The translations under genes and the position numbers were made by a program. From positions 26,649,068 to 26,713,067 of the forward strand of contig NC_079230.1 in assembly GCF_029633865.1 (NCBI RefSeq): a DNA stretch of 64,000 bases, read 5' to 3'. Positions 18,377 to 61,839 of this stretch are shown one piece after another. Positions within the stretch are counted from its first letter, which is position 1; every line of letters starts with the position of its first letter. This stretch comes from Lampris incognitus (lineage: Eukaryota > Chordata > Actinopteri > Lampriformes > Lampridae). The notes beneath the pieces are model-generated. The model was not told the origin of the DNA, searched no databases, and saw nothing but the letters and a program-made list of their open reading frames with translations.

Positions 18377-18533
18377 TGTAACGTGCATGGATAAGAAGAC
18401 ACGCTGGCCACTGGCTCGCGGGTCTGACTCTTTAGTCGAGCGGTTAGCGATGTCTCCTGCGGTGCGGGCGATACGGGTTCGCTTCCCGGCCGCGGCGGTT
18501 CCTGTGGTTGCGTTGTCCCCCGAATTCGCTACA
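18377..18533 (+). mobile_element. 157-bp TG...CA element with tRNA-like promoter (type C, copy 1)
   Basis: Begins TGTAACGTGCATGGATAAG and ends CGAATTCGCTACA. Inside lie a Pol III A-box match (TAGTCGAGCGG, about 18435) and a B-box-like GGTTCGCTTCC (about 18477). The same 157-bp unit is inserted in the minisatellite at 60148-60304. TG...CA ends with short inverted TGTA/TACA resemble a solo LTR. Here the flanks (gtag / gtat) do not give a perfect target duplication. Confidence 0.7.
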
Positions 18534-54248: not shown

Positions 54249-54383
54249 TGTAAACTACTAATAAGACACGTTAGCCCCAAGCTAACGGGTCTGACCCTTT
54301 AGCCGAGCGTTTAGCGATGTCGCCTTATGGTGCAGTACACCCCGTATCGAATCCCGCACCGGGCAAGAAAATAACCGGTTACA
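54249..54383 (+). mobile_element. 135-bp TG...CA element with tRNA-like promoter (type D, solo copy)
   Basis: Begins TGTAAACTACTAATAAGACA and ends AATAACCGGTTACA, with terminal TGTAA/TTACA inverted. Inside: a near-perfect Pol III A box TAGCCGAGCG(T) and a B-box-like GTATCGAATCC. A 135-bp counterpart forms the 3' LTR of the small element at 61149-61452. Flanks show no clear target duplication. Confidence 0.7.
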
Positions 54384-58192: not shown

Positions 58193-58239
58193 GACCCCAA
58201 AATGGTGTACGTACCAGGTACGTACACCATTTTGGGGTC
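58193..58239. repeat. Perfect 47-nt palindrome in cckar intron 2
   Basis: 23-nt arms (58193-58215 and 58217-58239), exact complements around a single A at 58216. The arm begins gaccccaaaatggtg and ends tacgtacc. Confidence 0.95.
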
Positions 58240-58556: not shown

Positions 58557-60460
58557 ATACTATAACCCCTAACTAACCACTACTATACCCTATACTAACT
58601 ATACTATATATAATATAACCTATACTACTATAACCCTATACTAACTAACCACTATTATACCCTATACTAACTATACTATATATACTATAACCTATACTAC
58701 CATAGCCCTATACTAACTAACCACTACTATACCCTATACTAACTATACTATATATAATATAACCCTATACTAACTAGCCATTACTATACCCTATACTAAC
58801 TATACTATAACCTATACTACTATAACCCTATACTAACTAACCACTACTATACCCTATAGTAATTATACTATATATACTATAACCTATACTACTATAACCC
58901 TATACTAACTAACCACTATTATAGCCCTATACTAACTAACCACTACTATACCCTATACTAACTATACTAACTATACTATAACCTATACTACTATAACCCT
59001 ATACTAACTAACCACTACTATACCCTATAGTAATTATACTATATATACTATAACCTATACTACTATAACCCTATACTAACTAACCACTATTATAGCCCTA
59101 TACTAACTAACCACTACTATACCCTATACTAACTATACTAACTATACTATAACCTATACTACTATAACCCTATATTAACTAACCACTACTATACCCTATA
59201 CTAACTATACTATAACCTATACTACTATAACCCTATACTAACTAACCACTACTATACCCTATACTAACTATACTATAACCTATACTACTATAACCCTATA
59301 CTAACTAACCACTACTATACCCTATACTAACTATACTAACTATACTATAACCTATACTACTATAACCCTATACTAACTAACCACTATTATACCCTATACT
59401 AACTATACTATATATACTATAACCTATACTACCATAGCCCTATACTAACTAACCACTACTATACCCTATACTAACTATACTATATATAATATAACCCTAT
59501 ACTAACTAGCCATTACTATACCCTATACTAACTATACTATAACCTATACTACTATAACCCTATACTAACTAACCACTACTATACCCTATAGTAATTATAC
59601 TATATATACTATAACCTATACTACTATAACCCTATACTAACTAACCACTATTATAGCCCTATACTAACTAACCACTACTATACCCTATACTAACTATACT
59701 AACTATACTATAACCTATACTACTATAACCCTATACTAACTAACCACTACTATACCCTATAGTAATTATACTATATATACTATAACCTATACTACTATAA
59801 CCCTATACTAACTAACCACTATTATAGCCCTATACTAACTAACCACTACTATACCCTATACTAACTATACTAACTATACTATAACCTATACTACTATAAC
59901 CCTATACTAACTAACCACTACTATACCCTATACTAACTATACTATAACCTATACTACTATAACCCTATACTAACTAACCACTACTATACCCTATACTAAC
60001 TATACTATAACCTATACTACTATAACCCTATACTAACTAACCACTACTATACCCTATACTAACTATACTAACTATACTATAACCTATACTACTATAACCC
60101 TATACTAACTAACCACTACTATACCCTATACTAACTATACTATATATTGTAACGTGCATGGATAAGTAGACACGCTGGCCGCTAGCTGGCGGGTCTGACC
60201 CTTTAGTCTAGCGGTTAGCGATGTCTCCTGCGGTGCGGGCGATACAGGTTCGCTTCCCGGCCGCGGCAGTTCCTGTGGTTGCGTTGTCCCCCGAATTCGC
60301 TACAATATAATATAACCCTATACTAACTAGCCACTACTATACCCTATACTAACTATACTATAACATATACTACTATAACCCTATACTAACTAACCACTAC
60401 TATACCCTATAGTAACTATACTATATATATTATAACCTATACTACTATAACCCTGCACTT
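58557..60460. repeat. G-poor minisatellite array with 732-bp higher-order period
   Basis: Tandem variants of a unit of about 60 bp built of CCCTATACTAACTAACCAC, TACTATACCCTATACTAACT and ACTATAACCTATACTACTAT blocks. Almost no G occurs on the plus strand. Rare variants recur at a fixed distance: 'accatagccc' at about 58700 and 59432, and 'ctagccattactat' at about 58776 and 59508, both 732 bp apart, so a block of about 12 units has duplicated as one. A 157-bp element is inserted at 60148-60304; a fading piece of the array continues to 60460. Confidence 0.95.
60148..60304 (+). mobile_element. 157-bp TG...CA element inserted in the minisatellite (type C, copy 2)
   Basis: Same length and ends as the copy at 18377-18533: TGTAACGTGC... 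to ...ATTCGCTACA. A box TAGTCTAGCGG matches the consensus exactly; B-box-like GGTTCGCTTCC. ATAT lies on both sides (60144-60147 and 60305-60308). Removing the element and one ATAT restores a junction that occurs elsewhere in the array (at about 58746-58767), so the target duplication is 4 bp. Confidence 0.8.
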
Positions 60461-60667
60461 CTCCAAAGGAGTTGAATCAAGTGCAACTGGACTTGATCCT
60501 TTGGATAACCATGACCTGGATGAATGAGAACGTTCACAGACATAACCCTGCACTAACTAACAACAACTATAACCTATACTAACTATACTATATATATGCT
60601 TAAGTAAAATCTCAAATTACACGTCAAACTCATATCAGCTAACAGATTTAACTTTTCATGTTTCAAA

Positions 60668-60736
60668 ACATCCATCCATCTATTATCCGAACCACTTATC
60701 CTGCTCTCGGGGTCGCGGGGATGCTGGAGCCTATCC
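60668..60736 (-). mobile_element. SINE A2 fragment, cut by the gypsy insertion
   Basis: '(ATCC)n..tattatccgaaccacttat' to 'ggatgctggagcctatcc', ending exactly where the gypsy LTR starts. Confidence 0.8.
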
Positions 60737-60921
60737 TGTGATGTGTAGTAAATAGGCTTAGCCTGTGGTGGCGCTGCTGCTGTAACCCACCTGTTGAATG
60801 ACATGTAACACCATAGAAGAAGACATTCAGTTAAAAAGACGGTCAAGCTGAATCGACGCGCTATCCGTGTGAGTTGTTGTGTCGCGTCATTGTTAATCTA
60901 AATAACAATACATATATGACA
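60737..60921 (+). repeat. 5' LTR of the gypsy element
   Basis: 185 bp, begins TGTGATGTGTAGTAAATAGG and ends ACATATATGACA, directly followed by the TGGTGTCAGAAG primer binding site. The 3' LTR cannot be compared. Confidence 0.8.
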
Positions 60922-61148
60922 TGGTGTCAGAAGTAAAGTGTGGAGCGACTAAAGCCACCGAACAGCTTGTGCCTGGAAGGGAACCTGGCGCAAGATTGGC
61001 TTTCGTGGATTCAGAGGTTTGAGCCGTACCTCGTTGCTCGCGGCATCTCCGAAAAGTCAGAAAAGGTGAAGTGCGCAACTTTTCGCCATGTGGCTGGAGA
61101 GGAAGCGATCAAGGTATTTAACGCCATGGACTCTGATGATGGCGGTGT

Positions 61149-61452
61149 GGTGTCGCCGTGTGGTGCAGTACACCTCGTATCGAATCCCGCACCGGGCAAG
61201 AAAATAACCGCTTACTTTGGCGGCAGCGGTGGGATCCGGAAGTGCGCAGATCCTCAGAAGTCTCTTCGGAGCGCGGGAATAACAAAGCGCGAGGGCGCGC
61301 TTCCGGGGAGGGTGACGACTAAACTACTAATAAGACACGTTAGTCCCTAGCTAACGGGTCTGACCCTTTAGCCGAACGGTTAGTGATGTCGCCTTGTGGT
61401 GCAGTACACTCCGTATCGAATCCCGCACCGGGCAAGAAAATAACCGCTTACA
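61149..61452 (+). mobile_element. Small TRIM-like LTR element (type D) nested in the gypsy gag
   Basis: Parts in order: a 5'-truncated LTR (61149-61216, ending AATAACCGCTTAC-T); a primer binding site TGGCGGCAGCGGTGGGATCC at 61218-61237, matching in 17 of its first 18 bases the complement of a tRNA-Leu 3' end as I recall it; an internal region of about 100 bp with no coding capacity; a purine tract ggggaggg at 61305-61312; and a 135-bp 3' LTR (61318-61452). The LTR holds A-box (TAGCCGAACGG) and B-box-like (GTATCGAATCC) motifs. This is the architecture of terminal-repeat retrotransposons in miniature. Confidence 0.75.
61218..61237 (+). other. Primer binding site, tRNA-Leu type
   Basis: TGGCGGCAGCGGTGGGATCC directly after the left LTR. 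It starts with TGG (complement of CCA) and complements the acceptor stem and T-arm end of a Leu tRNA, with one mismatch in 18 by my memory of the tRNA. Confidence 0.65.
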
Positions 61453-61839
61453 ATAACATACCTGAGACACGTGCTTTTCCAAAGGGTCCAAGGAAGGAGT
61501 GAGTCAATCGATGCATACCTGACTGACTTGAAAAATAAAGCAAAGGACTGCGAGTTTGGGCAGCTCACAGACTCGCTGATAAGGGACGGCATCGTGTGTG
61601 GCGTAACAAAACAAATGATCAGGCGAGAGCTAGACTGCTCAGAGAGCCCGACTTGTCATTGGCAAAAGCTGTTGATATCTGCAGAGCTAACGAAGCTACA
61701 CAAAGCCACCTGAGAGCTTTGCATGAAGAAACTGAAGTGGCAGTTAGCAAGCTAAGTAAAACGAAGCTAACAAAAGCCTAAAGAGAGCAGTGTCAGTGAT
61801 AATAAATATGACTGCAGTAAATGTGTATACAAACAATGA

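Follow-up and report, generated by a model that had tools for sequence, protein, structure and literature searches.

The sequence at 61142-61452 of the window, i.e. of the whole 64,000-nucleotide stretch of Lampris incognitus DNA analysed here (NC_079230.1, positions 26,649,068 to 26,713,067), is best explained as a TRIM of the Helenus kind, with a putative Pol III promoter in its LTRs and a presumed Gypsy helper, for which the family labelled gypsy-H is the best candidate; the window copy would have lost its 5' part and lie in a decayed Gypsy element other than gypsy-H. A probability of about 0.85 is assigned to this account as a whole. That a TRIM of the tRNA-promoter type is abundant in this genome is established by its copies, their ends and their target duplications, the promoter itself being putative.

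In the proposed mechanism, Pol III would initiate 5' of the A box of the left LTR, the box motifs being observed, and would read through the interior as far as the right LTR, so that the two ends of the RNA repeat each other. As suggested by the primer site, Gypsy proteins would package this RNA and copy it with tRNA-Leu(AAG) as primer, and a Gypsy integrase would insert the product with the 4-bp target duplication which is observed. gypsy-H would act as the helper, and its junctions with Helenus would arise by template switching inside particles that contain both RNAs.

The window copy and its genomic relatives

Positions 61142-61452 of the window are a 5'-truncated LTR-interior-LTR element, located within the decayed gag of a Gypsy element; direct repeats at 61147-61215 and 61383-61451, 94% identical in the window sequence, fall within its two LTRs. 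All features are on the forward strand. The left LTR (61142..61216), aligned to a genomic LTR copy, retains LTR positions 59-135. It is followed by a non-coding interior of 103 bp (61217..61319, 95% identical to a genomic interior copy), which includes a primer binding site (PBS) for tRNA-Leu(AAG) at 61218..61235, with one mismatch as judged by complementarity to the tRNA gene from the same genome, and, 5' of the right LTR, a purine tract (61302..61313, limits approximate, from the sequence). The right LTR (61320..61452, 97.7% identical to a genomic LTR copy) covers 133 of 135 bp, as the GT of TGTAAAC is missing. According to the A-box and B-box definitions assumed by us for scoring, it carries an A-box-like motif at 61369..61380 and a B-box-like motif at 61413..61423; a second B-box-like copy is found at 61177-61187, in the left LTR.

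A truncated left LTR inside gypsy gag had already been recognised in the first-pass annotation, where it was made to start at 61149; the location stands, and the start has to be moved to about 61142. The primer site, leader and gag start of the host Gypsy occupy 60922..61141 (forward strand), and its gag continues from 61453. In all five related Gypsy copies gag is unbroken, and 59-65 bp separate the two points that flank the insertion in the window; a deletion in the window copy has therefore taken the left target duplication, roughly 58 bp from the start of the left LTR and a little gag. Elsewhere in the window, a solo LTR of the same family (94.8%, flanks TAAG/TATG) lies at 54249..54383 on the forward strand, and an inverted repeat (GACCCCAAAATGGTGTACGTACC) with perfectly matched 23-bp arms and a loop of 1 bp at 58193-58239.

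The genome to which the window belongs (1.48 Gb, 537 contigs) was searched with 61149-61452 as query, which gave 55 matches from the best 40 of 1433 first-look candidates, the long matches being mostly 95-96% identical; genome searches with the LTR only and with the interior gave 1154 and 320 candidates, respectively. Only the best candidates were scored, so that the copies studied are skewed to those closest to the window copy, and counts are not to be read as copy number. After de-duplication, 68 loci provided 96 chains, from which 51 complete elements were counted and 45 other chains excluded. The complete elements comprise 33 LTR-interior-LTR copies, 13 solo LTRs, one of which (L055), with PBS-like letters directly 3', is perhaps not a genuine solo LTR, and five tandem copies (LTR-interior-LTR-interior-LTR). 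With a probe LTR of 135 bp and a non-coding interior of 103 bp, the full length is about 373 bp; the 33 complete two-LTR copies are 352-375 bp long, 29 of them 372-375 bp.

Exact 4-bp target duplications flank 28/33 two-LTR copies and 10/13 solo LTRs, against a background of about 2% 4-bp matches in cross-paired flanks of the two groups. None of the five tandem copies has one; four are one base short of a 4-bp duplication, against 10% of cross-paired flanks. Exact flank matches of 5-8 bp were found in no group, whether two-LTR, solo or tandem. A purine tract, GGGGAGGG or GGGAGAGGG, precedes the 3' LTR in the copies inspected. The two LTRs of an element diverge by 1.5-10.4% (median 4.4%, 32 usable pairs) and no pair is identical, which indicates that the copies are not fresh. 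One locus (L024:1499-1773) is a head-to-head Helenus product, made up of an LTR, the first 59 bp of the interior and an inverted LTR part. Three diverged Helenus-like copies (L131, L134 and L135), with GGATCGAATCC as B box and the primer site of the first family, possibly represent a third family.

A tRNA-Leu(AAG) gene, whose 3' end reads ...GGGTTCGAATCCCACCGCTGCCA, was recovered from the same genome. The primer site TGGTGGCAGCGGTGGGAT is the exact complement of this end plus CCA, and is found in the 33 complete copies with no mismatch (22), one (10) or two (1). A sense tRNA-Leu piece in the interior (about 61262-61280) was also considered and rejected: a Leu-like locus, L170, visibly has letters in common with it, but 76/500 shuffles of the interior match tRNAs equally well.

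These results bear out most of the anatomy proposed at first pass, namely a TRIM composed of LTR, PBS, short non-coding interior, purine tract and LTR, with a 135-bp LTR, an interior of about 100 bp, a total of about 370 bp and a tRNA-Leu-like primer site. The genome search proposed there for the 135-bp LTR did return many LTR-interior-LTR copies of that size with 4-bp duplications, along with solo LTRs.

Composite loci joining Helenus and gypsy-H

gypsy-H is a label coined here for a Gypsy family. A search for the primer site preceded by a non-T base before ACAT gave 52 places, 20 of which were fetched. By eye, 18 were Helenus or diverged Helenus-like sequences, although no left LTR could be recognised in L132; the other two, L141 and L145, had the primer site with a different LTR end. 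L141 continues into a gag-like ORF (Pfam Retrotrans_gag, E 0.038, below the Pfam cut-off), which has at least 152 genomic matches, including 23 of 89-92% identity over nearly the whole length. The primer site is present in 11 of the 12 gypsy-H leaders fetched, and exact in 10. In addition, gypsy-H and Helenus share the LTR end CGGTTACA and a one-base T spacer which, together with the 18-nt primer site, make up a common stretch of 27 nt. The exact 27-nt string (CGGTTACA-T-site) occurs in 20/33 complete Helenus copies and in 7/12 gypsy-H leaders, one of the seven (L166) being a composite. TGTAACC is the start of the gypsy-H LTR in L159 and, among five composite 5' LTRs inspected, in four. As to the 3' LTRs, that of L188 is preceded by a GGAGGGGAGG purine tract and that of L187 is not. 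Among non-composite gypsy-H LTRs, L159 is 1.7-3.4% away from the LTRs of five composites, and L158 11-12%.

Using L166 as query against the genome, the best 40 of 209 candidates included nine loci in which a Helenus LTR is joined to the gypsy-H leader, and 31 containing the gypsy-H part only. The whole 135-bp Helenus LTR is present in 9/9 composites, at 94-98% identity, and in all nine loci the junction falls exactly at the shared stretch of LTR end, spacer and primer site. Six of the nine show the order gypsy-H LTR, primer site, Helenus interior, Helenus LTR, primer site, gypsy-H leader; within these, only the 3'-terminal 56 bp of the gypsy-H LTR were matched in L193, and the Helenus interior of L178 is internally deleted. 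In two (L182 and L185) nothing recognisable precedes the Helenus LTR. In the remaining one (C11:54098) the gypsy-H LTR is cut at GTTAT and the Helenus LTR carries on, at both ends of the element. Integrase domains were detected in the 3' ORFs of the C1:112249 and C14:31134 composites. A coding element with the same LTR, which the first-pass annotation had named as evidence against its reading if its A/B boxes were not conserved, does exist in the form of these loci, but they are recombinants which retain the whole 135-bp LTR.

Template switching in shared particles appears to be the likeliest origin of the composites, because their junctions lie at the stretch common to both elements, as switching within a common particle would give. 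The shared LTR end, T spacer and primer site, taken with the nine joined loci, likewise point to gypsy-H as the best helper candidate for the first Helenus family. The stronger proposal, according to which gypsy-H moves Helenus and repeated switching of the reverse transcriptase at the identical stretch gave coding Gypsy elements with a tRNA-type Pol III promoter immediately upstream of gag, the products being integrated as units, is put forward tentatively, at slightly under even odds. If true, physical recombinants would reveal which element helps a Pol III TRIM, and a TRIM promoter would have entered an autonomous element.

The main competing explanation is that the composites derive from DNA recombination between chromosomal copies, in which case they would be uninformative on the helper. 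It must be taken seriously, even if we regard it as somewhat improbable. A gypsy-H 3' LTR was missing from six of the seven places where it was predicted; one composite which does have it (C14:31134) is bounded by unequal flanks (CTAG/TTAA); and Helenus tandem arrays occur too. On the other side, the stretch in common measures only 27 nt, and the C1:112249 composite has a gypsy-H LTR at each end and CTAA on both sides, being the sole composite with a target duplication. Moreover, for 6/6 composites the closest Helenus sequence is an ordinary copy and not another composite, one of these comparisons being distorted by a deletion. The mean distance of the Helenus part is 9.6% for the six composites, a value inflated by the deletion in L178, 5.0% for the other five and 4.8% for the 33 ordinary copies, figures equally compatible with a single origin of the composites and with several.

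Box motifs and the second family

A second, related family is represented in the window by a solo LTR of 157 bp (60148..60304, forward strand) with ATAT on both sides, in which, by the same assumed definitions, an A box is located at 60204-60215 and a B box at 60247-60257. This LTR sits in an AT-rich satellite array (TATAACCCTATACTAACTAACC...) extending over 58557-60596. A further solo LTR of this family (94.9%, flanks GTAG/GTAT) is found at 18377..18533, on the forward strand. In the genome, the second-family LTR has matches of 96-100% identity among the best 40 of 1291 candidates. Fourteen loci were fetched: four are LTR-interior-LTR, with interiors of 99-119 bp, and ten have one complete LTR; the 4-bp flanks match by eye in 14/14, two of which lie in AT repeats. 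The primer site TTGGTGTCAGAAGTGGGATGG, which we take to be that of another tRNA-Leu, is found in three of the four two-LTR loci and, with one change, in the fourth; a search for a helper of this family counted 192 places in the genome where the site follows an altered base. Between the two families, LTR similarity is mostly 79-83% in a region of about 62-76 bp that surrounds the A box. In older relatives the B box is GGTTCGCGTCC in 5/8, and the best-scoring box pair is spaced at 64 bp, rather than 43-44, in 5/8.

The A/B pair of the first-family LTR matches 16/18 defined positions at 44 bp start to start, as against the spacing of about 45 bp first noted, and that of the second family 17/18 at a spacing of 43; in either case 0/3000 dinucleotide shuffles equal the pair. 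Two Gypsy LTR regions served as control and did no better than shuffles, of which 232 and 291 out of 400 reached their scores. Among 110 complete LTR copies of the first family, the A box is full-score in 92 and the 44-bp spacing is retained in 95; the B box scores 7-9 of 10 in 109 (8/10 in 86, 9/10 in 7), so that the conservation predicted at first pass holds for the A box and the spacing, and only in this looser form for the B box. Similarly, of the likeness to a Leu/Ser tRNA suggested there, the Leu-like letters of the A box are confirmed and the spacing is not: in the tRNAs of this genome, 44 bp is found in three tRNA-Val genes and 53 in tRNA-Leu(AAG).

At motif level, then, the LTR carries a tRNA-type A/B-box pair, from which we infer Pol III activity. 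The TRIM might instead be transcribed by Pol II, the A/B-like motifs being relics or chance resemblances, and several tests are compatible with this. Rfam searches (up to E 10) detected no tRNA fold in window 60100-61600 and 13 loci, nor in nine loci including older relatives, nor in part of L016; a single tRNA-Sec match in window 18377-18533 is at chance level (E 5). ARAGORN found no tRNA in the window, nor in a set of the window plus 122 loci. Against 17 tRNA genes, covering some isotypes only, the similarity of the first LTR is at chance level (144/500 shuffles as good) and that of the second is weak (35/500). The B box of the first family is mostly 8/10. The A box is conserved no more than the rest of the LTR in the first family, and the boxes no more than other blocks between the two families, where 673 of 3062 random block pairs equal them; since the boxes are conserved no more than their surroundings, conservation alone is no argument for function. 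Transcription by Pol II from a TRIM devoid of a Pol III promoter is nevertheless considered unlikely, in view of box pairs exceeding all 3000 shuffles in both families, of the spacing kept in 95/110 copies and of AATAAA occurring in only 5/33 complete copies. The absence of TTTT from the sense strand was discarded as a Pol III sign: it was observed in 32/33 complete copies, but also in 656/1000 shuffles. A search of the genome for the tRNA family gave 158055 first-look candidates, of which 63 were scored; tRNA-like repeats may be very numerous.

The host Gypsy around the window copy is very improbable as the helper. Its primer site is indeed of the tRNA-Leu type, and its leader shows local similarity to the second-family interior (14 to 141 of 1000 shuffles equal this, for four interiors), but the letters responsible for the resemblance differ in its nearest copies. 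The 18-nt site of either family was found in 0/40 leaders, drawn from 150 gag matches, the best differing at 3/18 positions.

Comparison with known systems

tRNA-derived SINEs have a tRNA-type internal promoter and are moved by LINEs. That a SINE of this type, or a SINE dimer, has here been mistaken for an LTR element is scarcely credible: the element is short and numerous, and has in common with them tRNA-type promoter motifs, with A and B boxes at a tRNA-like spacing, but it has TGT...ACA ends, a PBS, solo LTRs, exact 4-bp duplications with zero exact 5-8 bp matches, and 3' flanks which, in the copies inspected, are not preceded by an A-rich tail. SINE-like long duplications, which the first-pass annotation had named as counter-evidence, were not seen in any of the 51 complete elements. 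SINEs with tRNA-type internal promoters are mentioned in the introduction of Kojima 2024 (PMC10886601).

Cassandra elements of plants (PMC7215508, PMC10853983, PMC10886601) are, in the parts of these sources consulted, similar in being TRIMs with the promoter of a small-RNA gene in the LTR and in forming tandem arrays; they differ in their 5S rRNA promoter and plant hosts. Rfam scans of the window stretch and of 13 loci returned no 5S rRNA match up to E 10. Another animal TRIM is PbTRIM (PMC3532108), whose host is an insect, the red harvester ant; the beginning of its abstract does not mention a Pol III promoter.

The closest system is Helenus (TRIMp3), described by Kojima 2024 (PMC10886601) as TRIMs with tRNA-like LTRs, in fish as well as elsewhere, so that the tRNA-type promoter of a mini-LTR, presented at first pass as a distinct solution, was already on record. 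As far as the text consulted goes, Helenus elements were screened as having two LTRs, less than 1000 bp and no coding capacity; they carry a PBS after the 5' LTR and a PPT before the 3' LTR, and produce 4-bp duplications in animals. Their primers in vertebrates include Leu, a Gypsy helper being inferred from PBS likeness. In zebrafish, LTR-11_DR accounts for 5575 LTRs and forms tandem arrays, and fish Helenus is aligned with tRNA-Val in the legend to Figure 2; Pol III transcription is an expectation in that paper, not validated there. The present elements have all of the structural features, i.e. two LTRs in a short, non-coding unit, PBS, purine tract and 4-bp duplications, besides many copies and tandem arrays; the A/B boxes are tRNA-like at motif level only, with neither a tRNA fold nor a significant full-length similarity to tRNAs. 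The element appears to be a new member of Helenus, a kind already known, compared with the LTR-11_DR group by description only. No papers on Helenus-type elements or LTR-11_DR other than Kojima 2024 were found in the literature searched.

Two features go beyond that description. The occurrence in one window of two families with different tRNA-Leu primer sites is new relative to the parts of Kojima 2024 (PMC10886601) consulted, as are the recombinant loci with a coding Gypsy family: these parts mention no chimeras, composites or template switching, and neither recombinants of such TRIMs with a helper nor a physical link to one were found in the literature searched. To the extent covered, the same source does not settle which autonomous element a TRIM of this type relies on, nor how that reliance is maintained. 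A candidate such as gypsy-H, which agrees in LTR end, spacer and primer site and has recombinant loci, makes the question of the helper directly testable.
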